From a virus, in IMG/VR virus record IMGVR_UViG_3300044611_001491, positions 1 through 34,668 of that record: 34,668 nucleotides of DNA, one strand, 5' to 3'. Each line of letters starts with the position of its first letter. Positions within the stretch are counted from its first letter, which is position 1. The notes under the pieces are model-generated. The model was not told the DNA's origin. It did not search any database and saw only the letters and a program-made list of their open reading frames with translations. The position numbers and the translations under genes are program-made. Shown one piece after another: positions 7,404-34,077 of this stretch.

Positions 7404-8249
7404 TCACCTTATTGGACGAGAGCCACGATTAGCATTTAGACCAGTGGCTAGGCTCTGACTATTGGCTCTCATAGCACCAAAAGCAACACCCGTTAACATA
7501 GCACCACCAGCGAAGAGAAGATTCCTATTACCAATACTAGTTAAGAACTTAGCCGCCTGTAAACCACCTCTTTGTACAGATGCAGTTTCAGCTGTATTCC
7601 TAAGAGTCTTAGCTGCCCACGGACGTATCTTACTAGCTGCACTAGACGCTATAGCACCACCAGCATAAGCCATACCAGCACCCATAAATGCAGTATCTAT
7701 ACCACCATCAGACATACTTGACGCAGCCATACCGGCAGTTAGGGCAGCACCTATTCGAGGAATTCTTCCATTCAAATACTTATTGGAATCTCTAAGCTCT
7801 CTAGTAAGAAAACCATTAGACTTGTAACCTCTATATTGAGGAGAGGCTGGATTTGAATAGATACCTGAATAGGATCCCATACCAACAGGTAATTGATTAG
7901 CTTTCTGAGCAGCACTCAAAGAAGGTCTAGATCTGTTAGGAACATTTGGAGAAGCATTTGGAACAGTGCTTGTAGTAGGCGAAGGAGCTATCGGAGGGGC
8001 TAATGGAAAAGCGCTCCAAGGACTTCTTGGACTAGGTCCCATAGCACTAACTGTAGGAACTCCTTGGCCTTGATTTTGTACACTTAGTGGGATGTATGCT
8101 CTTTGGGCTTTGGAAGGGCGAGTATATGCCGGTACTGATCCTACGATAGGGTTAATATTTGCAGGATACCAGTTACCAAGACCCATATACTGTTTGCCAT
8201 GTGGCGACGCCCAGTCTCCTAAAGTAGCATTTATAAAATTAAAATTCAT
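7404..8249 (-). CDS. Pro-rich/Gly-Ala-rich virion protein (281 aa)
   Basis: There are two clear halves. Residues 40-125 are rich in Pro, Ser and Asn, low in complexity and probably disordered. Residues 165-270 are rich in Gly and Ala (ALTAGMAASSMSDGG, AGMAYAGGAIASSAAS, LLFAGGAMLTGVAFGAM), which are small-residue helices of the kind that pack in or against membranes. The 315-residue protein at 11915-12862 has the same Gly/Ala character. The gene directly follows the terminase with a four-base overlap. A virion-internal or ejection protein is plausible; no family is recognised. Confidence 0.6.
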   Translation of the reverse strand: MNFNFINATLGDWASPHGKQYMGLGNWYPANINPIVGSVPAYTRPSKAQRAYIPLSVQNQGQGVPTVSAMGPSPRSPWSAFPLAPPIAPSPTTSTVPNASPNVPNRSRPSLSAAQKANQLPVGMGSYSGIYSNPASPQYRGYKSNGFLTRELRDSNKYLNGRIPRIGAALTAGMAASSMSDGGIDTAFMGAGMAYAGGAIASSAASKIRPWAAKTLRNTAETASVQRGGLQAAKFLTSIGNRNLLFAGGAMLTGVAFGAMRANSQSLATGLNANRGSRPIR

Positions 8250-11200
8250 TGCTTCCTCCAGCCACGATCAGAACGTCTTCTTGGCTCTATAATATGAGAG
8301 CTAGTTGTCTGCCTACTATATTCTGGATCACCTGCTACTGGCAAGCTATTGCTCCATTTAACAAGTTCTGGCTCCTGTTCTTCTCTTCCTCTGACTCTTC
8401 TTTGGACTCGATCTCCTCTCCCGTTCCTGGACGCGGCTTGCTCTGGTGTCTCCCCTTGCCTCATTGTTTGTAGAAGAGTAAACGCTCCTGGAGCAGCTGT
8501 ATTTGTCTTCCTGAAGTTATCAATAAGCATTTCCCCTGGACTCTGAAAAGTTGTTTCCGCACGTTCGTCAAGTTCATCCTTACTTAGATATGTAGGAATA
8601 CTATTAGCTGTACGTTTAGGAGAGAAAAGTCCTGATTCTATTTGTATACCGCCTATAGCTAGCATGAAAGCGTCCAGTCTATGGTCGCCTATAGAGGGAG
8701 AATCGGTACCATATACAGGCTTATTAGTTGTACTTGAGAGCTTCAGCTGAACATAATGTGCTAACTGCTTAAGAAGTACCTTCTCAGCCTCTGGTATCCA
8801 AAGTATTCCATTATCACCTTGTCCTGGGTCTTCAAATACTCGCTTAGACATCTCGACCAAGAACAACTTGCCATACTTAACTATTTCTGTACCATCTACA
8901 GGATTTCTAAGTACTAAATTCTTAGAGAAGTTGAAAGACTTTAATCTCTCTCTCATCTTAGCTGTTTCTTGTTCTCTTAATGTTGCACCCTTCTTCTGAC
9001 TTAACTCAAGTGCAAGTAAAAGGAGGTTCTCTATAATAACAGCTCCATATCCTTCGTCTGCGTAGATATAGTCTGGTCTCCATTTATAGTTTAATCTGAT
9101 GAGTTCTTCTTGCCAGCGTAGAGCAGAAAATTCTCCAGCAGAAATATTAACAGCTTCGGAAACAATATACCTATTAAGATGGGGTATGTAAGTAACAACA
9201 ACAAACTCAGTGCCAGCATTTTTATTCCAGTCGATGCCTATGCATCTAATTACTTGTTGATCACTTGTTACAGCGAAATGATCTTTCCACCATTTAGAAT
9301 CATTACAATCCTCATAGGTATAATCTTTCCTGCTTCTAGCTATAAAACTTGCCTTAAATACTCCGTAGTTAGAATCAACGAATGAAGCCATGTACTCTGC
9401 TTCTATAGCTTCCTTAGTTGCATCACCTATCATCTCATATTTAATTTTATTCCATTGAGGAAGCACACTAGAAGGTAGATAATCTTCTTTAAATCTAGGG
9501 GATTCCATACACCATTTATAAAAGTGTCCTTTCTTGCCTGAAGGAGTACTGGTAGCAAATAACATAGTATTACCTTCTATATCGGACATTAAGATTGGCT
9601 TAACAACCTTCTCCAATACGTCTTCCGGAATGAAGTCCATCTCGTCTAGATATATAATATGAGCAGACTGACCACGCATAGAAGCACCACCATTGCCATC
9701 ATGTCTTAGACCAACACCTGAGATGAATCCACCTATCTCTGCTCCGTTATCAAAAGCCATCTTGTATTGTGGACTCTTAATATATAATGCGTCATTGGAA
9801 CCACTGGTAACGGATTTACACAGATCCTTGTTTCTCTTTAACAAGGACTCCATCTCATTAAATATGTTTGTTAACTGATTCTGATAAGGAGTAATAATCA
9901 TGATCTTTGGTCCATGATACTCTTCTTCGCCTTCAGAGTTAATCCATGCAACCTTCATATTAAATGCTCTTTCGAGTAACTTAATAGCCATTGCAAAAGT
10001 ATTATGCGTAGGTATACAAGCTTCACCAGCTAAATATAAATGATTAGGAGAATCTACAGTAATACATTTTACTGGAACAGACTCAACTTTTGTTATAGCA
10101 GTGATATATCTATTGCTCTGACCAAACGTCTTATCTTCAATCCTATTTGCCTTTCTTGTTAATTTGAAAACATTTACTGGTGGATTGAAGTATATCCTAG
10201 TTCTGTCTTTATATCTCTCACCATCAAACCAAGATTCTCCTATGTTCTTACTCGCCTTAAAACCAAGACTAATTATTAGTTCGAAAACATCATCAGCTAG
10301 TTCTGGATCGGAAGAGGTGAATTCACACGTTCCTTTTGTTAAAGCAGAGCCATCACTATCCATTAAACCCTTGAGTAACTCTAGTCTTTGATTAACAGAA
10401 GCCCTTAGATACTGTGCTGGTATTCTCTTCTCTTTATGGATACCTAGCCTCTTAAGCTTAGTTATGAGTCCTGGTATACCACAATTTATCTCCGAGGAAT
10501 AACCTGTCTTAGTTGTATAACCACAAGCATTTATATTTCTCAAAGATTCGTTTTGGTCCTGCAGTCCTATAGTTACATAACTAGTACCTCTCGTACCATC
10601 TCCTAACCAATAACCTAACACGTATGGATGAACAAGTAGTTCTATATCTGAAGATGTATAAGACAAAGGCTTTGTTATTGGAATAGAATAGTTAGATTCA
10701 TTCTTTTTACCAACTTTAAGATTCTTGATCATATCCTCTGTAGTTAGATTAATAAGTCCATGTCGCTTTGTCTTGTTTCTGGCATTACTCTTTCGCATAG
10801 ATTTTGTCTGCACAGACCAAGTATGTTCAGCATCAGCTATTATTTCGCTGCCATCATCAAATTCAACCTTATAGCAGGGATGATCATACATTACATCAGT
10901 AACGAAAGTTACTTTACACGGCTTCCCAGTCTCATCAAACACTAAAGATCCTTCCTCTAGATCTTCCATGGTTGTCCAGCCATTTGGTGAAGGAATCTTG
11001 GTCTTTATCCAAAGTGCTTTTCCAGCTCGACGACCTTCACGAACAACAATTCTACGAGATGTACATCTTATCTGCTCTTTCTGGTATGGACGTATAGACC
11101 ATTTAGGATCAGTATCTCTTAATCCGAACATAAGTTCAGCCCAAGCAACAGGATCTACAGTAGATTGAGCATATCTTAGAGCCCTTTCGTATGGTATGCC

Positions 11201-11506
11201 TTTGGCTTCCATATTTTCAATAAGCATCTCGGCACTAGCTGGTAAATGCTTAGGAATACCGCTACATGGTACTAAGAATTTGTTAGCATTTTGGCTAGTC
11301 TCGTTATCTTTTGTGTATTCGTATTTTAATTGCTGTCTTACCTGACAGTTAATACATGTTCTATGCAACGTGGTATCTATGCCCCAAGTCTTACCAGCAA
11401 ACTCTATTTCATCCTCATCTAGAGAAGCTGTAGGTATTTGATGCCTATAACCATACTCGTTAGTAACGAAAAGTTTCTTCTCTAAGTCTTCTCTAGTTAA
11501 TACCAT
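8246..11506 (-). CDS. terL: Terminase large subunit interrupted by an intein (1086 aa precursor)
   Basis: This is the DNA-packaging motor: an ATPase that pumps DNA through the portal plus a nuclease that cuts the concatemer. Removing the intein (residues 164-502) restores the P-loop VREGRRAGK-TFAMA and leaves a 747-residue protein of usual size. Walker B is IIYLDEMD (Asp621, Glu622) and the coupling motif is ATSTP (651-655). The RNase H-like nuclease shows Asp759 (IGIDW), Asp817 (YADEGYG) and a late Asp in GDHRLDAF. A Cys51-x2-Cys54 pair near the N-terminus may bind metal. The C-terminal tail of about 100 residues is polar and Arg-rich. The gene overlaps its upstream neighbour by 14 bases. 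Packaging depends on correct protein splicing, because the insertion splits the ATP-binding loop. Confidence 0.95.
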   Translation of the reverse strand: MVLTREDLEKKLFVTNEYGYRHQIPTASLDEDEIEFAGKTWGIDTTLHRTCINCQVRQQLKYEYTKDNETSQNANKFLVPCSGIPKHLPASAEMLIENMEAKGIPYERALRYAQSTVDPVAWAELMFGLRDTDPKWSIRPYQKEQIRCTSRRIVVREGRRAGKALWIKTKIPSPNGWTTMEDLEEGSLVFDETGKPCKVTFVTDVMYDHPCYKVEFDDGSEIIADAEHTWSVQTKSMRKSNARNKTKRHGLINLTTEDMIKNLKVGKKNESNYSIPITKPLSYTSSDIELLVHPYVLGYWLGDGTRGTSYVTIGLQDQNESLRNINACGYTTKTGYSSEINCGIPGLITKLKRLGIHKEKRIPAQYLRASVNQRLELLKGLMDSDGSALTKGTCEFTSSDPELADDVFELIISLGFKASKNIGESWFDGERYKDRTRIYFNPPVNVFKLTRKANRIEDKTFGQSNRYITAITKVESVPVKCITVDSPNHLYLAGEACIPTHNTFAMAIKLLERAFNMKVAWINSEGEEEYHGPKIMIITPYQNQLTNIFNEMESLLKRNKDLCKSVTSGSNDALYIKSPQYKMAFDNGAEIGGFISGVGLRHDGNGGASMRGQSAHIIYLDEMDFIPEDVLEKVVKPILMSDIEGNTMLFATSTPSGKKGHFYKWCMESPRFKEDYLPSSVLPQWNKIKYEMIGDATKEAIEAEYMASFVDSNYGVFKASFIARSRKDYTYEDCNDSKWWKDHFAVTSDQQVIRCIGIDWNKNAGTEFVVVTYIPHLNRYIVSEAVNISAGEFSALRWQEELIRLNYKWRPDYIYADEGYGAVIIENLLLLALELSQKKGATLREQETAKMRERLKSFNFSKNLVLRNPVDGTEIVKYGKLFLVEMSKRVFEDPGQGDNGILWIPEAEKVLLKQLAHYVQLKLSSTTNKPVYGTDSPSIGDHRLDAFMLAIGGIQIESGLFSPKRTANSIPTYLSKDELDERAETTFQSPGEMLIDNFRKTNTAAPGAFTLLQTMRQGETPEQAASRNGRGDRVQRRVRGREEQEPELVKWSNSLPVAGDPEYSRQTTSSHIIEPRRRSDRGWRKQ
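10001..11017 (-). mobile_element. Class 3-type intein with LAGLIDADG homing endonuclease in TerL P-loop (339 aa)
   Basis: The intein lies between Lys163 and Thr503 of the precursor, exactly in the Walker A loop. It begins with Ala (ALWIKTKIPSPNGW) rather than Cys or Ser, and ends IPTHN before a Thr +1 residue. It carries the W-C-T set that defines class 3 inteins: Trp in DAEHTWSV (intein residue 67, two after the block B His), Cys in VKCITVDSPNHLYL (residue 318) and Thr just before the terminal His-Asn (residue 337). In this class splicing starts at the internal Cys. Two LAGLIDADG motifs (LGYWLGDG and LLKGLMDSDG) about 80 residues apart indicate an intact-looking homing endonuclease. The reading frame is open throughout. 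Confidence 0.92.
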
Positions 11507-12864: not shown

Positions 12865-15840
12865 TTACATCCTATAATGGTTAATTGGGTTTGCTCTTAC
12901 TAATTGGTTAACATGTTGCTGAAGCATCATTTGAGAAGCTTTTCTTTCTCTTTGTATAGCATTATTAGTATCATACATGTCGAAGGCTGCATACCTCTTT
13001 CTAGAATATGAACTTGTAGACATCCCTGTCGAGTCAAGTACTGATACCTGATTTAGCGCGCCATATCCATTCCTGCTATCGAAATTATTCTGATTCACAT
13101 TTGCAGAAGTTATATCCTTAGACTTCATCTCTAACTGCAACTGATTTATATGTAGCTGATTATTCATCCTTGTTACTAGTAGATTACTAGGTGCCTTCTG
13201 ATCATTCCAAGCCATAGGCGTAATAATGCCAGACTCTGCCGCAGCAGCAATATTCATAAGATTAGTATCTCCTGCTACCTTCTTTATATCAGCTAAAGTA
13301 TTGAAAGTAGGTCTATTCTTACTACTAGACATCTGATACACTGCTTGTCCGAAATCGGTATTCCACACACCTCTAGAAGCCATATAGGCATTATCTTCTG
13401 CCTTCTTCATGGCGTCGTAGTTAACCATTGCCTCTTGTTTCTTACCATATGGTAGATGTGCTACGTATCCTCTCTTGATCATTTCCTCGTTCATATTTGC
13501 GCCATCTACCATAAGCGCACCCATTGGTCTTCCATAGGACATACCAGTAGACTTAAAAACCACCTCTGATTTGTTCCCTTTTGCTAATATCTGTTCTAGA
13601 GCTGCCTTTGCTTCCTCAGCTCCGTCCTGCGCTTTTCTTCCTTGATGGCTTACCTCTGGCGCGTCAACACCTGCAAGTCTGATAGATAGATCATTATTAC
13701 CTGTAAAGAAACCTATAGTCCTATTTAAGATACCTTTCCTTCTAAGAGATACAGTATCTGCGTCCTGAGCAGTAACATCATAGTTATCAAGTGCTAAAGC
13801 TACTAAGTCATTACCTTTAAATCCCTGGTATCCATCCTGTACTCTAACTCCATCAGAAGTATAATGATAACCAGTCTTAATAGACATATCGCTAATGATC
13901 TTAAATATACCATTCTTGGGATCGTAGTACTGAGCCCTGAATTGACTTCTCTGCCAACGCTCTCTTTCTTCCATAAGTTTTTGATTTTCTAAAACCTGTG
14001 AAGAAACAACCGGACCACGATAAGGAGATCCGAAGTCAGTATTGTACTTTCTTTGCTCTGCACCTACGCCCTGTGTAGCCATACCATGGAAGGATTGAGA
14101 TATTGGTGCTGGTTGCTCTGGCTGAGGTAATCTCTTTTGTGCATCTAACCAGTCTCTATAACCATAGCCTAAAATAGACTTATTCCTTTCTTGTTGTCTA
14201 CCTGCTATAGCATCGTAAGCGAGAGTAACCATGCCTAATCCAGCAATGGCAGCAGCTCCTAATCCTATATGAGGCAGGAACTTATTAGCCTTTGTGATGT
14301 CGATTGGATTACTCTTAATTAAGCTATCTAACGCATCTGTAGCCTTTAAAGCAGAAGGTGTCCAGGACCTAAGCGACTGTGCCTCTGCCTCAACAAATAG
14401 AGAGCCAATCTGTTGTTCAGTATTTCCTAAAGTACTTCTCATGGGCTTAACTCTGCCTACTGCATTGGAATACTCTTTCCATACTGACTCTATATCTACA
14501 CCATAGTTATTATTATCTGTTAAATGTTGTAGAACAGAGTCCATGTCTCTAAAGCTTTGTACGCCATGATTTATTCTTGGGATCTTTACTACTTCCCCAC
14601 TAGGTGTTACCTGCTTCATATTATATGTACCGGCAGGACCAGTAGTCTGAATAGACTGACCGGTAAGGGAAATATCTTGGAATGCTCTATGTATACGCTT
14701 AAGTACGTTTACTCTTTGTAGAGGTGCCTCTACTTCTTCTCTCGCACTTAAAAATTTCAGATACTGAAATAGATCGCCTTCACCCTTCTTAGCGCTCTTA
14801 ATATAGTGTTCGCCCGTACCCTCGCTAATGGACTCTAGCATTCTATTATACTTTGTTGCCTGCTCTAAAGCATACGACTCATGGATACCAGCGTCTTCAG
14901 CACCTCTATGCAACTCTCTTAGAGATAGCATCTTCTGGTTTCCTTCTGCATATGCAAAGAGATGCGATACTAGGTCAATACCGGAACCATACAAAGGATC
15001 ACCCTTAGACTTGGTTAATCCTAACTTATTAGCATAGGAGAAGTTAGCCTTAACAACATCTAATATATCTCTAACTGCCGTTTCGCCGGCCTTAGGCTGG
15101 AACTGATTGTAGGCCTTCCACACATGAGTCCAGTCACCTGTTAGTTGAGCCTTTACTTTTGCCTGATTTACTTCCCTACCTGTTACATAGAAAGGATCCG
15201 GCGAATGAACATTCTGAGTCTCTAAATTTAAGGCCCTCTTGAAATTATTTGCTTCGCCATCTGCTGCTAACTGTGCGCCTACTTGTGTAGCCTCGAACTT
15301 AGTATTGGCAATCCAGATTGTCTTGCCTTTAAGTTCCTGAGCTAGTTCATTCTTCAAGAAGCTAGATATACCCTTTCTATTACCTAGATCGGATGTAATA
15401 CCAAATTCCATAAACCGCTTAGTTCTAGCAGCCATCTCTGCTGCATCCAAATGAGCCGGTTGTCTAAACGGATGATTCGGATTTAAAGCCATCTCAACTT
15501 GAAGTTCATTATAGGCGAAGGTATTACTCCACTTAAGAGCTTCAAGCATTGCTGTTCTATCGCCCTTAATACCCAGCTGAGAAAATACCTCCTGGGTTAT
15601 TACCTCTTCCCAATGACTAAATGGTCCTGCTCTTGTATGTATATCTCTAGCAGATGAGGATAACTTAGTTAAATCTTGAGGAGAATGCGGAGTAACACTT
15701 ACTAAGTTAGGATCAAAGATGAATTCCTTAAGAACCTTTGTCTGCAGGTTGTAGATACCTAGTTCCTTTATACCAGCACCACGAGCGAGACTGGTTGTCT
15801 CTACGTCTATGATCAGAGCATTTCTTAGTAAGTTGTCCAT
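12865..15840 (-). CDS. DEDD exonuclease-like / staphylococcal nuclease fusion (991 aa)
   Basis: The N-terminus, LIIDVETTSLARG (Asp12, Glu14), looks like motif I of DnaQ/DEDD 3'-5' exonucleases; a matching FEAT segment follows near residue 180, but the later Asp motifs are not certain. Residues about 531-557 form a single hydrophobic Gly/Ala helix. Residues about 686-826 are a convincing staphylococcal (thermo)nuclease domain: Asp703/Asp705, Arg731 in SIRLAGVDAPE, Asp736, Glu739 and Arg781 in YGRPMGAL match the calcium-binding and catalytic residues of the family. The tail is polar. The gene lies inside the virion operon, between the endolysin and a Gly/Ala-rich protein. A virion-borne, ejected nuclease attacking host DNA is an attractive reading, but unproven. 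Confidence 0.8.
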   Translation of the reverse strand: MDNLLRNALIIDVETTSLARGAGIKELGIYNLQTKVLKEFIFDPNLVSVTPHSPQDLTKLSSSARDIHTRAGPFSHWEEVITQEVFSQLGIKGDRTAMLEALKWSNTFAYNELQVEMALNPNHPFRQPAHLDAAEMAARTKRFMEFGITSDLGNRKGISSFLKNELAQELKGKTIWIANTKFEATQVGAQLAADGEANNFKRALNLETQNVHSPDPFYVTGREVNQAKVKAQLTGDWTHVWKAYNQFQPKAGETAVRDILDVVKANFSYANKLGLTKSKGDPLYGSGIDLVSHLFAYAEGNQKMLSLRELHRGAEDAGIHESYALEQATKYNRMLESISEGTGEHYIKSAKKGEGDLFQYLKFLSAREEVEAPLQRVNVLKRIHRAFQDISLTGQSIQTTGPAGTYNMKQVTPSGEVVKIPRINHGVQSFRDMDSVLQHLTDNNNYGVDIESVWKEYSNAVGRVKPMRSTLGNTEQQIGSLFVEAEAQSLRSWTPSALKATDALDSLIKSNPIDITKANKFLPHIGLGAAAIAGLGMVTLAYDAIAGRQQERNKSILGYGYRDWLDAQKRLPQPEQPAPISQSFHGMATQGVGAEQRKYNTDFGSPYRGPVVSSQVLENQKLMEERERWQRSQFRAQYYDPKNGIFKIISDMSIKTGYHYTSDGVRVQDGYQGFKGNDLVALALDNYDVTAQDADTVSLRRKGILNRTIGFFTGNNDLSIRLAGVDAPEVSHQGRKAQDGAEEAKAALEQILAKGNKSEVVFKSTGMSYGRPMGALMVDGANMNEEMIKRGYVAHLPYGKKQEAMVNYDAMKKAEDNAYMASRGVWNTDFGQAVYQMSSSKNRPTFNTLADIKKVAGDTNLMNIAAAAESGIITPMAWNDQKAPSNLLVTRMNNQLHINQLQLEMKSKDITSANVNQNNFDSRNGYGALNQVSVLDSTGMSTSSYSRKRYAAFDMYDTNNAIQRERKASQMMLQQHVNQLVRANPINHYRM

Positions 15841-17341: not shown

Positions 17342-17538
17342 GGAAACCTATATAGGGTAGAGAAATTGATTTTGTAAAAATTTCTAGGATACAAGAGAGC
17401 TTAATCCCAGAATTACAAGAAAGCAAGATGGAAATATATATTCAGTGCAGATATAGATTTATATATATGTTGGAGGTACCAGGTATTATATATGGTGTCA
17501 TGGGTAGGGACATCAAACGTTCGGAGCCCACCGGCCTA
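17342..17538. promoter_or_regulatory. Divergent intergenic region between the two gene blocks
   Basis: The leftward virion operon and the rightward small-gene block separate here, so promoters for both must lie in or near this AT-rich stretch. TATA-like runs occur at 17433-17468 and 17487-17493. On the minus strand, sequences near 17423 and 17395 (CTTTCTTGTAATTC, CTCTTGTATCC) resemble the rightward box imperfectly. On the plus strand, ATGTTGGAGGTACCAGGT at 17467-17484 recurs with one change at 29637-29654, also after an AT-rich run. No confident -35/-10 pair can be named. Confidence 0.45.
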
Positions 17539-17580
17539 AAGTACAGCAATGTGCTTCTTTCTTTTAATGGACCGTTGGTC
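17539..17580 (+). promoter_or_regulatory. Hairpin + TTTAATGG box + leader hairpin (cassette 1)
   Basis: AAGTACA-GCAA-TGTGCTT (17539-17556, one G-U pair) is followed by CTTTCTTTT, as in an intrinsic terminator. The box TTTAATGG (17563-17570) comes next. The leader hairpin GACC-GTT-GGTC (17570-17580) starts at the last G of the box. Confidence 0.65.
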
Positions 17581-17625
17581 ATGCGCTCATCCTGAGTAGC
17601 AACCAACAATGGAGGTCCTATGTAC
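17557..17625 (+). repeat. Leader direct repeat, copy 1
   Basis: A 69-base stretch running from the T-rich tract through the box, leader hairpin and ribosome-binding site into the first codons (ATGTAC). It is repeated at 17791-17859 with a single difference (T at 17619, C at 17853). A longer possible stem GTTGGT/ACCAAC lies inside it. The protein-coding parts that follow diverge at once, so the duplication has kept the regulatory leader only. Confidence 0.9.
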
Positions 17626-17760
17626 GCCAAGTTCACCCTTTGTGTCCACGTCAGCACCTACTCTCACGCCTGTGAGCAGTTGGAGCAGATGGGATGGAAG
17701 CGGGGACGTGGAGGGTACTGGAAGGGGGACATATACCTCTCCACTACCTTCTACGTCTAG
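17620..17760 (+). CDS. Small unknown protein (46 aa)
   Basis: Starts MYAKFTLCVHVS behind GGAGG five bases upstream, within the duplicated leader, and ends TTFYV just before a strong UUCG terminator. It is rich in Gly, Lys and Tyr (GWKRGRGGYWKGDIYL). No family is recognised. The shared leader and the immediate terminator make a real, separately transcribed gene likely. Confidence 0.65.
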   Translation: MYAKFTLCVHVSTYSHACEQLEQMGWKRGRGGYWKGDIYLSTTFYV

Positions 17761-17770
17761 TACTGTATTG

Positions 17771-17814: not shown

Positions 17815-17859
17815 ATGCGCTCATCCTGAGTAGCAACCAACAATGGAGGTCCCATGTAC
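17791..17859 (+). repeat. Leader direct repeat, copy 2
   Basis: Second copy of the 69-base leader at 17557-17625, one mismatch. It drives the 60-residue gene starting at 17854. Confidence 0.9.
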
Positions 17860-18036
17860 ACTGTCTGGATCAACCGGCCGTCTCGCATGAGCAGCGCCTC
17901 CTCCTTGGTCGTGACGAAGGAGGAGTTGGCTATGCTCATCGGGTATGGCTGTTGGCAGCGGCTTACTGTCTTCGTGGACGGTAAGCAGGTGTGTCTGAGG
18001 AAGCGCTCTCGCAAGGGTCGCATCTCTCAGAAGTAG
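17854..18036 (+). CDS. Small basic protein (60 aa)
   Basis: MYTVWINRPSRM... with a helix TKEELAMLIGYGCWQ followed by a strand-like TVFVDGKQVCLRK and a basic tail. GGAGG lies in the duplicated leader. The pattern of an (N)R/K-E-L/I-A helix followed by a beta strand recurs loosely in the proteins at 20733 and 21238, suggesting a shared small fold, but similarity is weak. A terminator follows five bases after the stop. Function unknown. Confidence 0.7.
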   Translation: MYTVWINRPSRMSSASSLVVTKEELAMLIGYGCWQRLTVFVDGKQVCLRKRSRKGRISQK

Positions 18037-18041
18037 TACTA

Positions 18042-18069
18042 GGAAGGGCCCTTCGGGGCCCTTCCTTTA
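18042..18069 (+). terminator. Strong UUCG intrinsic terminator
   Basis: GGAAGGGCCC-TTCG-GGGCCCTTCC (18042-18065), ten perfect pairs with a UUCG loop. It closes the 60-residue gene and separates it from the long non-coding stretch that follows. Confidence 0.9.
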
Positions 18070-18105
18070 ATCACTCTTTCTTTATCTTACTCGTTATAAC
18101 TCTAT

Positions 18106-19090
18106 GGGTGCATGGCGACATGACCCCTTGTGTGGATATAGGCATCGCTATGCCTGTCCACATGTACTGAATATAGCCTATGCTGGTAGGGTGTAAGCCC
18201 TACTGGTGTAGTACACGTCAGCTGTACCCTTGTGGTATGGCGGCTCAACCTGGTAGGTACCATGTAGGGTGATGATGTGTTGTGCATACGTGCCTTAGGG
18301 TACTGTATGGTGCGCGCAACACTGACTCACACGCATGGTATCATGGAGGGTGAAGGCTATGGCATGGGTATTAGCAGTATACCCATTACCCAAGGTAGTG
18401 CCTGTAGTGGGCATGAGATAGGGCAAGCATACTACCCATACATAGTACACCTTAGGGTGATATGTATGTGGCAAGTGCGATACTGAAGCCTGCCTCCTGG
18501 GCAAAATACAGGAGGACGGTGCTGGTAGTGTTAAGGTAGGGGCAACCCGAGGATACACACCTATACAGCACTCTATCCGCAAGGATAGGTCAGACCCGCA
18601 AGGCCGAGATGTACCCTGTGGTAGCAGAGATGCTACCAGTTAGAAGGTATGAGGCATGTAGGTAAGGTCTGTGAGGGAAGTGATGCGCCCAAGATTAGCA
18701 AGCTCACATAGGTACAGTGGTATACCTAGGCTACCAAGCCAATAAGACCACTACGATTTTGCCTGTACATCGTAAAGAAACAGGCACCTTTCCGGTAGTT
18801 CGATCCGGATACCTTGGTTGCAGGTAGGAGTGTTGTCGCGGCACAACAATCCCAAAGCAACTGGTCCAGCTTGAGATCTACGATCAAGCACAAATCGTCT
18901 AGGTTGAGTCCTAGCGATAACCCATACCCAGGCTAAGGCTGCTCCTCCAGAAGCAGTCCTGAGGCTTACTAGCCCTTAGGTAAGGCTGTTTCCGTTACTA
19001 CTGTGCTGGGCTAGAAAGAGTTTCACTTGGAACCTTTCGAAGCTCATTGGTCCTTGGGCAAGACTATCCCTGTCTATAGTGTCCACTCTC
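18106..19090 (+). ncRNA. Candidate large structured phage RNA A (about 1 kb)
   Basis: No convincing gene lies between 18037 and 19135, but helices are dense. A box-like CTCTATGG (18100-18107) precedes a 5' hairpin that begins on its G: GGGT(g)CATG-GCGA-CATGACCC (18106-18126). Further helices: 18131-18162, 18185-18204, a three-tier stem 18277-18322 (9+4+5 pairs), 18364-18386 (8 perfect pairs), 18437-18468, 18493-18515, CTATCC-GCAA-GGATAG (18573-18588), GGTAGCA-GAGA-TGCTACC (18620-18637), nested stem 18817-18861, 18869-18889 and 18894-18918. An H-type pseudoknot pairs 18752-18757 with 18769-18774 and 18760-18766 with 18780-18786. Three GNRA loops are present. The 3' end is unclear: no terminator precedes the next gene, so it could be a giant leader. 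ROOL or GOLLD RNA are size-matched alternatives I cannot test. Confidence 0.72.
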
Positions 19091-19101
19091 CTCCATTACC
19101 T

Positions 19102-19123
19102 GTTGGTGTTTAGGTAAACCAAC
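19102..19123 (+). promoter_or_regulatory. Leader hairpin before the 19136 gene
   Basis: GTTGG and CCAAC (19102-19106/19119-19123), with TTT/AAA inside, form a hairpin ending seven bases upstream of GGAA at the start of the 128-residue gene. It may be the last helix of RNA A or a separate translation-control element. Confidence 0.5.
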
Positions 19124-19135
19124 GAAGGAACTGCC

Positions 19136-19522
19136 ATGTTCGTTCTCAACTTCTTCGCCGCTGCGACCCTCCCCACCTCGGTCATCGCCGCCATCGTGCT
19201 CGCCTCGATGGATCACAGCGGGGGGCTCCTCAGCTTCTGTATGGTCCTCGGCACCATCGGTGTCAACATCTTCACCTGGGGGCTCAACGCCCTCAAGCAG
19301 GAGGATGAGATGGCCGAGGAGATACGAAAGTTCCGTGTGGCCGAGTGGAAGACGGCCCTGCTCTATATGTGGAAGCAGAGCCAGGAGATCTGGGCCTGGA
19401 TGGCCCAGGAAGTAGAGCGCGACAATCGGGCCATGGCCCGGTATCACGTCCGCAAGTTCTGGGAAGCTGTCGAGGCTGCCTACTGCCTGCAGCAGTACCA
19501 GTCCGAATTGGCTGGCGAGTAA
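19136..19522 (+). CDS. Two-pass membrane protein (128 aa)
   Basis: Hydrophobic helices at about residues 3-23 (LNFFAAATLPTSVIAAIVLA) and 30-50 (GLLSFCMVLGTIGVNIFTWG), followed by a charged, Trp-rich amphipathic helix to the C-terminus. The start follows GAAGGAACTGCC. The topology would suit a holin, antiholin or superinfection-exclusion protein, but no family is recognised. It is the first protein downstream of RNA A, with no terminator between, and may be cotranscribed. Codons are strongly G/C-ending from here on. Confidence 0.75.
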   Translation: MFVLNFFAAATLPTSVIAAIVLASMDHSGGLLSFCMVLGTIGVNIFTWGLNALKQEDEMAEEIRKFRVAEWKTALLYMWKQSQEIWAWMAQEVERDNRAMARYHVRKFWEAVEAAYCLQQYQSELAGE

Positions 19523-22116: not shown

Positions 22117-22292
22117 ATTGAGGGATAACTCCGCAGTGGCCCTTACGGGCACCACTCGTTCAGACTCCGCTCAAGCCAGAGGAAGTCGGTTAGTCTGGAA
22201 ATCAGTCCAGGCTCGCTGACGCTCGCCCCTTTCAGGCATTTTCCTCTAATCAAAGACTGGCTGTAGGGTTGAACTACAGCATGGAGACAAGC
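22117..22292 (+). promoter_or_regulatory. Structured leader of the RNA polymerase gene
   Basis: About 175 bases without a gene. GTGGCCC-TTAC-GGGCACCAC (near 22136-22154) is a hairpin. GCTCGCTGACGCTCGC (22211-22226) is repeated exactly at 25595-25610 just after the polymerase gene; in both places it can fold as GC-TGAC-GC with an outer stem (GGC/GCC here, AGC/GCT there) across a TC/TC mismatch. This is the longest leader among the protein cassettes from 19.5 to 28.7 kb, which hints at control of polymerase synthesis. Confidence 0.5.
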
Positions 22293-25200
22293 ATGTCCGT
22301 CCAGAACTCGTCCTGCACTCCCATCACCGTGGCCGCTCTTCCCGCCGACACCACCCTCCGCCAGCTGCGGGTCGAGGCCTCGCGCCTCGGCATGAGGTGG
22401 AACGACATCAAGCTGCTGGGGAAGGACCAGCTGTGGGAGCACCTCTGTCTCGTCTCCACCCTCGCCCCGCTCTGGGGAACGGAGAAGGACAAGACCCTCC
22501 TCCTCAAGAAGGTGGAGGCCATCCGGTCCAAGAGGGACCTGATGAGGAAGGCCTTTGAGAAGGCCGAGGGGAACACCGCCGCCCAGGACGGCTTGAAGTT
22601 CCTGTGTTGGGACCGTCTCCAGCCCGAGAAGGCGCTGGACTACATCCTCCAGAGCCCGAAGACTGAGCAGGCCGACGAGGTGCTCGGTCTCCTCTTCGAT
22701 GAGGTTCAGACCGACCTCATCACCAAGTCCGAGGGGAAGGCGAAGAAGTTCGCCAACGCTGGAGCCCGACGCGGAACCTACGTCCCCAAAGCTCTGCTGC
22801 TCGTCAGCCAGATGCAGAGCAAGGGCAAGGAGCACCTGCTCAACGTCCGCTGGGATGAGTCCCTGGACACCCTCGGTCTGGTAGAGCAGATTGTGGGCCA
22901 GCATGAAGGACGCCCGCCCGTGATCCGTATTCGGTGGGAAGTCGAGTTGAAAGGCAAGGCGGACATCACTGCCCGTCAGGAGCTGGCGAAGAAGCTCTGG
23001 GAGATCGGTTATCTCTCGTCCCAGGGTATCCTGGCCTGGGACATGCGTAATGTCAAGGTCAAGTATCTACTGGAGAAGACCTTCGGCAGTGCCATCGACT
23101 TGGCCGGTTACAACCACCGGTTGGGTGCTCCGCTCCTCCCTGAAGGCTTCCTCTCCGGTGTCAGGGTCCGCTTCTGGACTCCCATGGTCAACGGGGAGAA
23201 GCAGCAGACTGACGGTTCCGGGTGCTATGATCCTAAGCATCCGGATATGAAGAGCTTGGTTGACAGGTACGGTGCTGTCCCGATGCAGTTCACCTACATG
23301 ACCAAGTTTGGTCTCTTCGCGAAGGGGATTATTGTCCCGCGCGAAGACATCAACAAGGACATCGAGAATCCCACTGGTATCGTCCTTGATCCTCTGCAGG
23401 TCAAGGGCAGCCAGAAGGGCAAGGTAACTGACGGTCAGATCCACGAGGGCTGGCTGGGTGTGATGACGGCCTGGAATCAGGACCGGTTCTACCCGACCGG
23501 CTTCGAGTCTCTCCAGTGCCTGGACTGGAAGGACCAGAATGTCGTCATCAAGGCGTCCGACCTGATGAAGAAGTTCATCAAGAACCGGGTCGATGTTGTG
23601 GAACTCCAGGGACTCGATGGTCTGCTGGACAAAGCTGCTCGTGCTGATGAGCAGGTAGAGATGGTGATCCGTCTCGCCCGGGCCATCCAAGCTCACAACC
23701 CTGCGTACAGCCCGCTTTCATTGCCCCTCATCCGGGCGGATGTGAACAACATCCTCCGCAAGTTCAACTACGTGCTTCTCCAAGGGGCTGGTGCTCAGGG
23801 TGCACAGCGTATCTGCGTGCTCGACGCATCGGTTCCTCGTGGCAAGTGTGTGGTCAGTGGATTCCGTACCGGCCAGCAGTTGGTCGTGTGGCGGTTCCCG
23901 AACATCCTCAGCCAGGGCAATAAGGTGCTGGAGAGCATCAAGCCCTCTGCTCACCACCTGTGGGATGGGAAGGTAATCAGGAACACCATCTGGCTGAATC
24001 CCTGGGACCTCACCCTCGGGATGCAGGGAGACGATGACGGTGATATGGTGGGCGTCAGCGATGATGCAGACCTTGTCTCGTTGTTCTCCCTGCCAATGAT
24101 TGGTGACATGGGTAAGAAGGAGAGGGCTCAGTACAAGATTGAGCCCGTCGGCGACAAGAAGGTCATGAGTTCTCTCAGCCCTGAAGGCCGTGAGTACCTG
24201 GCCCTTGACCCGATGGGACCGGTCGGTATTGCCACCATGTGGCAGGCTGAGTTCTACGCCCTGGGTTCCTGGAAGCACGCACTCGTCATGGGCGTGTTCA
24301 TCCAGTACGCCATCGACTCGGCCAAGCGGCTGGTTCGTTGGCCTGACCCAAATAAGCTCCTGCTCAAGTCTTCCTGGTACCTCAAGGAGGGTGCCTGGGC
24401 CATCACCGACAACGTGTGGTTGGACCTCGCTCCTGGTTCTCCGTTCCCCTATGACACTCTCGTTGAGTGGATGCAGGAACAGAAGAACCACTTCCCTGAG
24501 GCTCGCTGGCAGAAGAATGCCGAGCGTCCGAATATCCTCAGCTGGCGAATCCAGAAGGCTCCCGATAGCAAGGGCGTCATGAAGGACTTAAACAAGCTGG
24601 CTGACCTGGACTACTGGGATACCACGGCAGCCAAGTCCGGCAGCTTCGTTGGTGGGAATGCTGTGCATTTCTGCCACGACATCGCCAGAGCCGAGATGCT
24701 CAAGGTGAAGGACTCCTTCAACATGGATGTTCCTGAGGTGGACGTTCGTGAGATCCTGAAGGAGGTGGCAGCTTCTAAGGGGATCGAGCTGAGTCTCACC
24801 GCTGACGACTGGGATACCTATGAGGCTGGTCTTCGGAAGTCTTCTGGTCTGGAGGGCTTCAAGAAGAAGTTCTCTGAGGCCATGAAGAAGTCTACCTCCA
24901 CCGAGGACAAGCAGGAGCGCATCAGTGAAGAGCTGGCGAAGCTTGCTGTCAATGCTCAGGGTCTCACCCTGAACGAAGTCTACACCATCTGGTACTGGGA
25001 GAACACTCCGGTTTGGGGTAAGGCCCAGCACACCTCAATGGTGGAGATGGATGGGGATGGATGGTATCTTCGGAACCGGCCCAACTATGCATTCCGCATG
25101 GTGGCTGAGTCCAAGATGCTCCAGGTCCTGGGGCTGGTAGAAGATCGTGGGTGTCCCTGGATGACTCCCCAGTACATCAAGGGGATCAAGCAATGGTTCG

Positions 25201-25514
25201 GGAAAGGGAATTCGTGGAAGGAGTTGGCGGCGGCTATCGCCAAGAACACCTCTCACGCCAGCTTGGTCAAGGACGAGAATGGGGCTGATGTCCCGTTGCA
25301 GTCCTGCTCATGCTGCAAGAACGCCCTGACCAGCCTGCTCCTCCAGAGCGAACGTGCCAAGTCTCGTGGGTTTCGGCCCGATGAGATGAACACGATCGTT
25401 CGGGAACTCAAGTCCACTCCCTGGTTCATGCCGGGGAAGGAAGGCTTCGAGGAGGAGTTCTCCTACTACTCCGATGGCGGTAACGATGGTTGGGATGGCG
25501 CTTGCGGTGAGTAG
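22293..25514 (+). CDS. Single-chain two-barrel RNA polymerase, YonO/QDE-1-like (1073 aa)
   Basis: The catalytic signature is MQGDDDGDMVGV: Asp580-Asp581-Asp582-Gly583-Asp584, the DxDGD metal-binding motif of RNA polymerases built on two double-psi beta barrels. Forty-six residues earlier VWRFPNILSQGN (Arg534) corresponds to the RNPclHpGD segment seen before DLDGD in cell RNA-dependent RNA polymerases and in phage YonO-type enzymes. It would transcribe phage genes from one polypeptide without host subunits. YonO is a DNA-dependent enzyme of this class; template preference here is inferred. The C-terminus has a Cys cluster (SCSCC). ATG at 22293 is chosen because GGAG lies six bases upstream; ATG at 22281 and TTG at 22269 are in frame. 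Codons are strongly G/C-ending. Its presence suggests that the repeated boxes are its promoters. Confidence 0.85.
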   Translation: MSVQNSSCTPITVAALPADTTLRQLRVEASRLGMRWNDIKLLGKDQLWEHLCLVSTLAPLWGTEKDKTLLLKKVEAIRSKRDLMRKAFEKAEGNTAAQDGLKFLCWDRLQPEKALDYILQSPKTEQADEVLGLLFDEVQTDLITKSEGKAKKFANAGARRGTYVPKALLLVSQMQSKGKEHLLNVRWDESLDTLGLVEQIVGQHEGRPPVIRIRWEVELKGKADITARQELAKKLWEIGYLSSQGILAWDMRNVKVKYLLEKTFGSAIDLAGYNHRLGAPLLPEGFLSGVRVRFWTPMVNGEKQQTDGSGCYDPKHPDMKSLVDRYGAVPMQFTYMTKFGLFAKGIIVPREDINKDIENPTGIVLDPLQVKGSQKGKVTDGQIHEGWLGVMTAWNQDRFYPTGFESLQCLDWKDQNVVIKASDLMKKFIKNRVDVVELQGLDGLLDKAARADEQVEMVIRLARAIQAHNPAYSPLSLPLIRADVNNILRKFNYVLLQGAGAQGAQRICVLDASVPRGKCVVSGFRTGQQLVVWRFPNILSQGNKVLESIKPSAHHLWDGKVIRNTIWLNPWDLTLGMQGDDDGDMVGVSDDADLVSLFSLPMIGDMGKKERAQYKIEPVGDKKVMSSLSPEGREYLALDPMGPVGIATMWQAEFYALGSWKHALVMGVFIQYAIDSAKRLVRWPDPNKLLLKSSWYLKEGAWAITDNVWLDLAPGSPFPYDTLVEWMQEQKNHFPEARWQKNAERPNILSWRIQKAPDSKGVMKDLNKLADLDYWDTTAAKSGSFVGGNAVHFCHDIARAEMLKVKDSFNMDVPEVDVREILKEVAASKGIELSLTADDWDTYEAGLRKSSGLEGFKKKFSEAMKKSTSTEDKQERISEELAKLAVNAQGLTLNEVYTIWYWENTPVWGKAQHTSMVEMDGDGWYLRNRPNYAFRMVAESKMLQVLGLVEDRGCPWMTPQYIKGIKQWFGKGNSWKELAAAIAKNTSHASLVKDENGADVPLQSCSCCKNALTSLLLQSERAKSRGFRPDEMNTIVRELKSTPWFMPGKEGFEEEFSYYSDGGNDGWDGACGE

Positions 25515-25656: not shown

Positions 25657-26055
25657 ATGGCCGTCATCCATCTTCTGAACACCGCTATCATCCCTTCCTT
25701 CTGGGGAGACTTCACCGTCTACGGTGGTTCCTACACCCTTGAGCAGGCCAAAGAATCTCTGGTCTGCCATGGGACCGGCATCGGCGAGGACTTTGATGGG
25801 CCCGAGCCCATCGAGGTGATCTCCCACATCGGCCACCAGTCCACCGCGGACATGATGTCGGTGATGCTCGGCCGAAAGATCGAGATGAGCCGCGCTCCTT
25901 GGGACGGCTTCGGCGACGCTCTCATCTGTCAGCTCAACTTCCGAGGTGAAGAAGGCAAGGTGTACTCCGCAGAGGAGATGCAGGCCTTCTGCAAGGAGGG
26001 CAAGGTGGTCTGGCGGTGGATCAACATCGTCAAGAGGGGTGAGAAGCGCTGGTAA
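25657..26055 (+). CDS. acrIII-1: AcrIII-1 viral ring nuclease, DUF1874 family (132 aa)
   Basis: Family members such as SIRV1 gp29 degrade the cyclic tetra-adenylate made by type III CRISPR complexes and so shut off Csx1/Csm6-type effectors. The sequence has the family order: LLNTAI at the N-terminus, SHIGHQSTADMMSVMLG with the catalytic-position His60, then SRA, then ALICQLNFRGEEGKVYSAEE with Arg96 and Glu98/Glu99, and a final EGKVVWRWINI strand. Length (132) is slightly above the usual 110-120; the extra residues are in the loop at about 38-52. TGGAGG precedes the ATG. It is the first gene after the RNA polymerase, so early expression is likely. Activity on cA4 is predicted, not shown. Confidence 0.88.
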   Translation: MAVIHLLNTAIIPSFWGDFTVYGGSYTLEQAKESLVCHGTGIGEDFDGPEPIEVISHIGHQSTADMMSVMLGRKIEMSRAPWDGFGDALICQLNFRGEEGKVYSAEEMQAFCKEGKVVWRWINIVKRGEKRW

Positions 26056-26068
26056 CAACCTCTTTCCT

Positions 26069-26096
26069 GGGCTGCTGACGCAGCCCTTGTTCTTGG
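26069..26096 (+). promoter_or_regulatory. UGAC-loop hairpin + GTTCTTGG box
   Basis: GGGCTGC-TGAC-GCAGCCC (26069-26086), then box GTTCTTGG (26089-26096). The expected product starts the 26.1-26.37 kb structured RNA. Confidence 0.75.
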
Positions 26097-26387
26097 TCGA
26101 GTCTAATGCCACAAGGCATTGGTTAGACAAGGAAGTCTGGATTGGCGACCGGACTGCATCTCTGGATGTATAGCTCCAACTTGTCCGTTGCTTGGTAGTG
26201 TTGCAACGGACTGGGTTTTAAGTTTCTGCTCACTTATCCAAGAAAGAGTAGACGACCGTAGAACCTGCTACGGAGGACGCGTAAAGGGCCTTTTCGAAGT
26301 CTGGAGTGGCGACCGACCACCAGTGTCATCAAGGACAATGGTATAGCTGGGAGGCACTACGAAAGTAGGCTCCCTCTCTTTTTATTT
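26095..26387 (+). ncRNA. Candidate structured small RNA B (about 280 nt)
   Basis: A discrete unit between a hairpin-box and a strong terminator, with no gene that has a ribosome-binding site. Helices: GTCTAATGCC/GGCATT...AGAC (26101-26128), GTCCGTTG/CAACGGAC (26183-26190/26204-26211), CCGTAG/CTACGG (26256-26261/26268-26273) and the terminator stem with a GAAA loop. A 20-base sequence GAAGTCTGGAKTGGCGACCG occurs twice (26132-26151 and 26296-26315, one mismatch). Each copy contains CGACC, complementary to the predicted 5' end GGTCG (26095-26099), so alternative pairing is possible. Position next to acrIII-1 may or may not matter. Confidence 0.6.
26349..26387 (+). terminator. GAAA-loop terminator of RNA B
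   Basis: GGGAG(gca)CTAC-GAAA-GTAG(g)CTCCC (26349-26374) followed by TCTCTTTTTATTT. No box is visible directly behind it. Confidence 0.85.
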
Positions 26388-29583: not shown

Positions 29584-29658
29584 TTCTTTATTGAATAGAT
29601 ATAAGTATATAGAAATATATAGATAAATATATAATTATGTTGGAGGGACCAGGTCTAC
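29559..29658 (+). promoter_or_regulatory. Hairpin + TTTATTGA box + AT-rich region with conserved TTGGAGG element
   Basis: Hairpin 29559-29583, box TTTATTGA (29587-29594), then an AT-rich run ending in ATGTTGGAGGGACCAGGT (29637-29654), which matches 17467-17484 with one change. GAGGGACCAGGTCTAC recurs at 29717-29732. Two places with the same AT-rich plus element layout suggest a second promoter or regulator-binding type. Confidence 0.5.
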
Positions 29659-29819
29659 CACTGTCCGTACTACTTCTATCTCTTTCTAACTATCTATCTA
29701 CTTATTCCCACTTCTCTGAGGGACCAGGTCTACTACTTATTTCCTACCTTTTTCCTGCTTCCTTCCTAACAGTCTACCACTATTTATCTTCTCTTTTACA
29801 ACTCTACATAAGGAGATCA

Positions 29820-33039: not shown

Positions 33040-33067
33040 GGGGCCTTGACAGGCCCCCTCTTCTTGG
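33040..33067 (+). promoter_or_regulatory. UGAC-loop hairpin + CTTCTTGG box
   Basis: GGGGCCT-TGAC-AGGCCCC (33040-33057), then box CTTCTTGG (33060-33067). It opens the 33.07-33.9 kb structured stretch. Confidence 0.75.
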
Positions 33068-33905
33068 CTCCCTCTCTTCATCAAAGATTTAACTTCGAGA
33101 ACTCATTTCGGCCCAGACGCCCACCGTTCTCGCTGGTGATAGACGGAGCTAGCAAGGCTGACCCCTTGCTTACCTAAGACAGAAAAAGAGGAAACCGAGT
33201 CTGCTAGCCAGAATGGCCAGACTCAACACCAACCACAAGTTGGAAAGGATTGTCTTCAATGGATGGCTTGTTCACTGACCTGTGATGACGTACAGGCAGT
33301 AACTTCTAAGCGCTGCTAAGAAGAGTTTGATCATCGCGCAAGGAAGGAAGGACGTTCCGAATCGTCAACTTCTCAACCATTGTCATCCTGACAAACCCTC
33401 GGCCTGAGGGATTTCTACGCAGTCAAGTACTTGCATATTGCAGGCAAGTGCTTGCATATTAAGAAAGAGGATTACAACTTGAAGCGGCGTCATACAAACG
33501 GTCTGGGGGGTGTCAGACCGTAAAGTGTTAGGGAGTCTCGGCTCAACGTCTTAGGGCAATGAGTATCTGGTGGGCAAACCGGATTTCGACTAGCTCCAAA
33601 TCATCCTATCTAACTAATTATACAAAAAATCTGTTTTTCATTTTGAGGCCAAGCCGGATGAGATGAGTTAATCACTTGTCTCATATGAAGGCGGGGAGAA
33701 GCTTTGTGTGCGGGGACAGCTCCATAGAGGTGGAGGCTTAGTGGAGCAATAATGCTCTGTAAGTGGGCAGCACAAACAAACACAGAATAGTAAAATCATT
33801 TCAAGAGCACGGGTAAATATCCCCTAACCCCTAGGGATTAGGCTCTTGAAATGACACGATTTAATATCCTCGTACTGTTCTGCTAAGATTCCTGGAAACA
33901 GGTAA
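33066..33905 (+). ncRNA. Candidate large structured phage RNA D (about 840 nt)
   Basis: No gene is visible between 33033 and 33957, and a cassette hairpin with box stands on each side. Helices: CGAGAAC/GTTCTCG (33096-33102/33126-33132), whose 3' arm lies inside CACC/GGTG (33122-33125/33135-33138), giving a possible pseudoknot; AGCAAGG/CCTTGCT (33151-33170); GAGTCTG...CAGACTC with inner GCC/GGC (33197-33224); CCAAC/GTTGG (33229-33243); CCTGT/ACAGG (33279-33296); CCCTC/GAGGG (33396-33410); ACGGTCTG/CAGACCGT (33498-33521); TCATTTCAAGAGC/GCTCTTGAAATGA (13 perfect pairs, 33796-33808/33842-33854); CCTG-GAAA-CAGG (33891-33902). An AT-rich unpaired part lies near 33600-33650. I cannot assign it to a known RNA class. 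Confidence 0.68.
33424..33460 (+). repeat. Two tandem copies of a 16-base sequence inside RNA D
   Basis: CAAGTRCTTGCATATT occurs at 33424-33439 and 33445-33460, period 21 bases, one difference (A/G). Each copy contains a palindromic core (CAAGTACTTG and GCAAGTGCTTGC), so each could form a short hairpin or bind a dimeric protein. Confidence 0.8.
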
Positions 33906-33908
33906 TGT

Positions 33909-33936
33909 AAGGGGCTTCGTGCCCCTTCTTTATTGA
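33909..33936 (+). promoter_or_regulatory. Terminator + TTTATTGA box
   Basis: AAGGGGC-TTCGT-GCCCCTT (33909-33927) followed by CTTT; box TTTATTGA 33929-33936. It closes RNA D and heads the 33958 gene. Confidence 0.8.
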
Positions 33937-33957
33937 ATAACTAACTTGGGAGGACTC

Positions 33958-34077
33958 TTGCCTGACAATAACGACACTCTATCACGTAGAATTGATGAGT
34001 TTATGGGTGAGATTGGTGAGGTAATGATGTGCCTCGCTAAGAAAATAGACAATATCACTGGTAAGGGGGATGGTTAG
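33958..34077 (+). CDS. Putative small protein (39 aa, TTG start)
   Basis: TTG start four bases after GGGAGG; reads MPDNNDTLSRRIDEFMGEIG and ends DNITGKGDG. The helix is amphipathic with heptad-like spacing (RRIDEFMGEIGEVMMCLAKKI is its core). Position right after a box supports it; the start codon is the only plausible one near the ribosome-binding site. Confidence 0.5.
   Translation: MPDNNDTLSRRIDEFMGEIGEVMMCLAKKIDNITGKGDG

Follow-up and report, generated by a model that had tools for sequence, protein, structure and literature searches.

What does a phage encode in a stretch of about 1 kb that is located between two protein genes and appears to be folded rather than translated? A sequence-only reading had described dense RNA structure without plausible coding frames at this place and had suggested a new or divergent large ornate phage RNA. 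We analysed the stretch, here called RNA A (18106-19095, + strand), in the context of the complete virus record of 34.7 kb (34,668 nt), hereafter the window. RNA A most likely represents a new family of large phage RNAs, its general kind being "large ornate phage RNA". We estimate the probability that this family is real and functional as RNA at roughly 0.8; the figure excludes the mechanism, and there are no expression data. The location, synteny, structure, base-pair-level selection and lack of coding of RNA A can be read directly from the sequences.

As judged from its sequence, the window represents part of the genome of an uncultivated jumbo phage, with Acinetobacter phage ME3, Moorella phage MTATph1 and Bacillus phage KLEB27-3 as distant relatives. 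In a joint alignment its portal protein is 28-31% identical to those of the three phages, the identity of the terminase being 25-28%. Their genomes comprise 177-235 kb, and Bacillus phage 0305phi8-36 is cited in the annotation of ME3. The genes of the left arm are directed leftward and those of the right arm rightward, with RNA A close to where the rightward array begins. A gene for an SNase-domain protein (12865-15840, - strand; Pfam SNase, E 1.8e-15; 57 viral loci) serves as synteny anchor. An intein-like insert carrying a LAGLIDADG domain interrupts the gene of the terminase large subunit (8246-11506).

RNA A ends at approximately 19095, possibly as far as the hairpin at 19101-19122, and the coordinates given earlier were accurate within about 10-30 nt. 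Protein coding is rejected, as all three + frames contain 16-22 stops each, the longest closed + ORF covers only 69 aa, and the RNAs of two related loci, L104 and L105, differ by indels of 1-2 nt. Shine-Dalgarno-like enrichment, which might hint at ribosome binding, is weak (AAGGA, z 4.0; AGGAGG, z 1.5). The minimum free energy of 18100-19095 (+) is -391 kcal/mol as compared to -347 +/- 6 kcal/mol for dinucleotide shuffles (z -7.4), and repeats with other bounds and shuffles yielded z values of -4.5 and -6.5. The opposite strand folds less well (z -3.3 and -3.5). Among 20 tiles of 996 nt the RNA A tile has the lowest z value; the coding tiles of the left arm lie between +0.7 and -1.1 and those of the right arm between -0.2 and -4.4, i.e. 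right-arm coding sequence is somewhat structured too, which limits the weight of the fold evidence. RNA A has six perfect stems of 7 bp or more that are closed by short loops, where 1.8 +/- 1.3 are expected and six is the maximum of 300 shuffles. Windows of 200 nt within RNA A are unexceptional (z -1.4 to -3.4; median of the whole window -0.5) and do not single it out, so the fold signal resides in the whole. Thus, both the dense structure and the absence of coding frames proposed from the bare sequence hold up. A second non-coding, strongly structured stretch at 33060-34055 (z -6.3) is without Rfam match and possibly contains a further RNA gene, and another intergenic non-coding stretch (26050-26380) carries repeated GGGCTGCTGACGCAGCCC hairpins.

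Several local elements can be distinguished within RNA A. At its 5' end the hairpin GGGTGCATGGCGACATGACCC follows the box CTCTATGG (18106-18126, +), a start of the type TTTWATGG plus hairpin that is also found in other cistrons of the array. The perfect stems include eight-pair hairpins at 18138-18157, 18364-18386 and 18619-18638, the last with a GAGA tetraloop; a GCAA loop closes the hairpin at 18572-18589. Two further hairpins, GUGCC-UUAG-GGUAC (18285-18309, +) and CACC-UUAG-GGUG (18440-18469, +), expose a UUAG loop, and a comparison of the window (both copies) with the relatives G003 and L099 reveals that this loop is constant while the stems change. The conserved core of RNA A (18591-18671, +) was recognized by BLAST to L207 and by compensatory changes versus L207 and L101. 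It is composed of the helices P1 (18591-18596/18666-18671), P2 (18603-18605/18653-18655), P3 (18612-18615/18646-18649) and P4 with its GAGA loop (18620-18626/18631-18637), all on the + strand and all also present in the single-sequence fold of the core. On the 3' side of the core the strands GUGAGG and AAGAKUAGCAA are constant: the conserved strand GUGAGG...CCCAAGAUUAGCAA (18671-18701, +) recurs as GUGAGG-ACG-CCAAGAGUAGCAA in L101, L184 and L207.

A search for homologues, which the sequence-only reading had called for, was seeded with the portal and the SNase-domain gene of the window and uncovered homologous loci at the same genomic place in IMG/VR phages. The portal alignment provided 80 viral loci, two alignments of the SNase-domain protein provided 11 and 57 loci, and a search with the leader pattern added L115, a contig of 183.5 kb. 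In about 20 related phages 0.45-1.2 kb of non-coding, structured sequence lies between the leader and the downstream genes, the shared order being leader, 0-3 small genes, RNA, membrane protein, polymerase. Some copies are incomplete at contig ends, namely those in G003, L104, L105, L107, L178 and L188. All 20 RNAs that were folded have a negative z value on the + strand (-2.05 to -15). With z -15, L107:1-1242 (minus) is the most structured of the homologues; it is incomplete at the contig end, contains many GNRA and UUCG hairpins and is a good candidate for structure work.

Sequence likeness among most homologues is limited to patches, and the homology of distant family members rests on synteny. 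When RNA A was compared by BLAST with the records from which 50 of the loci came, only patches of 20 nt appeared, one of which is located exactly at the syntenic place in G003, where leader, hairpin unit and a structured RNA, incomplete at the contig end, follow each other. No DNA similarity to RNA A was detected in phages and plasmids, and none to the RNAs of the relatives in phages. Scans with single proteins yielded nothing for the polymerase and, for the terminase, only one contig, a 100% match to the window. A motif scan of bacterial genomes gave 54 short matches, mostly in high-GC genomes, which were judged to be chance, as was L220, the sole further contig from a scan for CCTGCTTATG...AAGGA.

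The loci L104 and L105 are alignable over about 600 nt of the RNA, which is 84% identical, as compared to 76% for the SNase gene and 70% and 67% for other neighbouring genes, and all RNA indels comprise 1-2 nt. A structure predicted from one sequence alone was scored on its partner: double compensations numbered 8 where 1.5 were expected, broken pairs 19 where 35 were expected, and none of 2000 simulations was as extreme in either respect. With structure and scored sequence swapped, 0 and 1 of 2000 simulations reached the observed values. The core of the window RNA finds L207 by BLAST (E 6e-7); in P1-P3 all 13 pairs are kept, 4 of them being changed on both sides, while slid-partner controls gave no double changes and 23-42% pairing. 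A shuffle control is weak with only two sequences (35/500). P1 differs in sequence and nevertheless pairs in the window, L207 and L101, and the GAGA tetraloop of P4 sits atop unrelated stems in the same three loci. L099, L174 and L172 have a 3' domain in common, in which 4 double changes are found with 98% of cells paired (6/500 shuffles). A search with model R1 recovered only its own two members, without extension, and R2, the model of this 3' domain, matched L115 and L103 at the right 3' place, with E values of only 0.5 and 1.3. These comparisons indicate that selection in the homologous loci is acting on base pairs, not on a protein frame. An absence of covariation or conservation at the protein level, either of which would have refuted the original proposal, is not what we find: compensatory pairs occur in L104/L105, window/L207 and L099/L174/L172, and in L104/L105 the RNA is more conserved than the flanking genes. 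With helix covariation and no coding frame RNA A qualifies, on sequence evidence, as a large structured non-coding RNA.

Upstream of RNA A lies a leader or promoter-like element, TACCAGGTATT-N-CGGAGCCCACCGGCCTAAAGTACA (17477-17545, +), which is found with a spacing of 31-42 nt in RNA-bearing relatives and in many contigs of the SNase family. Its consensus is ACCWGGTATT-N36-GAGCCCACC, with the structured RNA downstream, and it is 88% identical between L104 and L105. Throughout the phage clade it is kept in the form TACCAGGTATT-N36-CGGAGCCCACCGG at the divergent point from which the rightward operon starts; its part GAGCCCACCGG is present twice in G003, and extra ACCAGGT copies occur in the window at 29645-29735. 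Two small ORFs (17620-17762 and 17854-18036, +) separate leader and RNA A, corresponding to the 0-3 small genes of the relatives, and a terminator-like GC hairpin with T run (18038-18072, +; repeat family D4) closes the previous unit. Between 17554 and 21545 nearly all small genes of the rightward array come after a GC terminator-like hairpin, the box TTTCTTTTAATGG and a short hairpin (GGnCAATTnnGnCC), and RNA A starts with the same kind of hairpin-box-hairpin unit. This unit may be a phage promoter, processing or terminator signal.

Directly 3' of RNA A the window encodes a membrane-anchored protein of 128 aa (19136-19522, +) with a hydrophobic N-terminus (KD 1.94). An N-terminal hydrophobic segment is present in the protein directly after the RNA in all 11 readable loci, as compared to 10 of 50 other array genes; the count leaves out the divergent loci L183, where the polymerase gene is next, and L216, where no long ORF starts. 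These proteins have one or two such segments and an acidic-looking tail. None of the eight that were scanned has a significant Pfam match, and there is no recognizable sequence likeness among those of different loci. The polymerase gene (22281-25514, +) is located about 3 kb beyond RNA A. Its product of 1081 aa is not recognized by Pfam and PHROGs, is conserved in the clade and is best read as single-chain QDE-1/YonO-like RNA polymerase, based on its GDDDGD motif, its homologues and a predicted structure: the AlphaFold model (pLDDT 67, pTM 0.61) matches QDE-1 in Foldseek (prob 1.00, E 1e-13). In other loci the homologues located downstream contain GDDDGD or GDNDGD, and the L183 variant has GDSDGD.

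Among known large RNAs no counterpart could be identified. At the gathering score Rfam 15 has no match in the window or in seven homologous loci, and at relaxed E-values nothing relevant appeared in the window, L103, L107 and L172, the best group-II fragment in the window (16 bits, E 0.9) being chance. RNA A thus does not qualify as ROOL, GOLLD or OLE by Rfam covariance model, in line with the earlier failure to recognize any diagnostic ROOL or GOLLD sequence. RNA A resembles GOLLD in being large (over 800 nt), structured and borne by phages or prophages, and ROOL in being a large structured phage RNA of unknown function. However, GOLLD often is near or contains tRNA genes and ROOL often lies near phage tRNA islands, tRNAs being the usual setting of both (PMC12286853), whereas neither the window nor 22 related loci contain tRNA genes. 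RNA A further lacks an Rfam match to GOLLD (at gathering score, or in the window at E values as high as 5) and to ROOL, has a fixed place before a membrane-protein gene and has been observed in a single jumbo-phage clade only. With OLE it shares the large structured RNA and a membrane-protein gene immediately downstream (PMC12265935), but RNA A has no Rfam OLE match and is carried by phages, and OapA, with four helices and a basic cytoplasmic patch, differs from the RNA A neighbour with its 1-2 hydrophobic segments, acidic-looking tail and lack of a significant Pfam match. HEARO, raiA, group II introns and other large RNAs are alike in size class only, without a match above threshold in RNA A. 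As there is no Rfam match, no tRNA and no report of the family in the literature (open access only), we treat RNA A as new family. Of the two options raised initially, a new large RNA of the ornate type is thus supported over a divergent ROOL or GOLLD that models could recognize, given the negative Rfam search, the syntenic homologues and base-pair selection.

As to the mechanism, we infer that the leader drives transcription of RNA A and that it is released as separate stable, free RNA with the function of a structural RNA. RNA A would most likely be transcribed among the first segments of the rightward operon, which starts at the conserved leader, and the hairpin/U-run units, which separate all cistrons there, would set it off. 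Once folded, it may consist of several domains that covarying helices and constant loops hold together and, as structural scaffold, join the membrane-anchored protein of the gene that follows immediately, similar to OLE RNA and OapA, so that both might build a membrane-associated ribonucleoprotein during infection. By analogy, this OLE/OapA-like scaffold with adjacent membrane protein is the most likely mechanism, if only a tentative one; it is favoured because the membrane-protein neighbour is the most constant feature. That a giant phage RNA and a co-encoded membrane protein form a membrane-bound ribonucleoprotein or RNA-scaffolded structure in convergence with bacterial OLE/OapA is conceivable but doubtful. 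The membrane proteins, acidic-looking and mutually unlike, do not favour direct RNA binding, as far as their sequences tell.

The RNA might also dispense with a dedicated protein partner and assemble into a homo-oligomeric cage or scaffold. GOLLD forms such a cage as 14-mer, and ROOL, of similar size, forms cages as well (PMC12286853); the size of 0.45-1.2 kb, the jumbo-phage context and the many GNRA-type and constant apical loops would suit this idea, but the missing Rfam similarity to both RNAs, the missing tRNA island and the conserved membrane-protein neighbour argue against it and we consider it unlikely. The same neighbour could instead be the target of regulation in cis, with the RNA being a long untranslated region that controls translation or stability of the membrane-protein mRNA. 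In most loci the RNA indeed ends directly before the Shine-Dalgarno sequence and start codon of this gene. Nevertheless, 0.45-1.2 kb is far above the usual length of leaders, L101 has a terminator-like hairpin with U run between RNA and next gene, and the arrangement is broken in L183 and L216, rendering this role improbable.

A QDE-1-fold polymerase downstream in the same operon, both in the window and in many relatives, raises the possibility that the RNA is its template, substrate or regulator, e.g. in second-strand synthesis or as 6S-like decoy. This seems remote, as nothing links RNA and polymerase directly and related single-chain phage polymerases such as YonO are reported to be DNA-dependent (PMC5467207). 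Finally, the array is rich in hairpins and some coding tiles have z values below -3, i.e. the stretch might contain no functional RNA at all but merely the usual hairpin-rich DNA between genes, or a gene that escaped detection. This is hardly tenable in view of compensatory changes far above chance, an RNA that is more conserved than the genes with indels of 1-2 nt, and constant loops on changing stems; covariation already disfavours it.

To our knowledge, very few RNAs of such size have been described from bacteria or phages. ROOL, GOLLD and OLE were found to form RNA assemblies, the purpose of which is unknown. The RNA A family, with about 20 divergent sequences of 0.45-1.2 kb, constitutes a natural set for structure and covariation work and, being an independent family with a fixed context of leader, membrane protein and QDE-1-like polymerase, provides a new handle on the roles of giant RNAs in phages.
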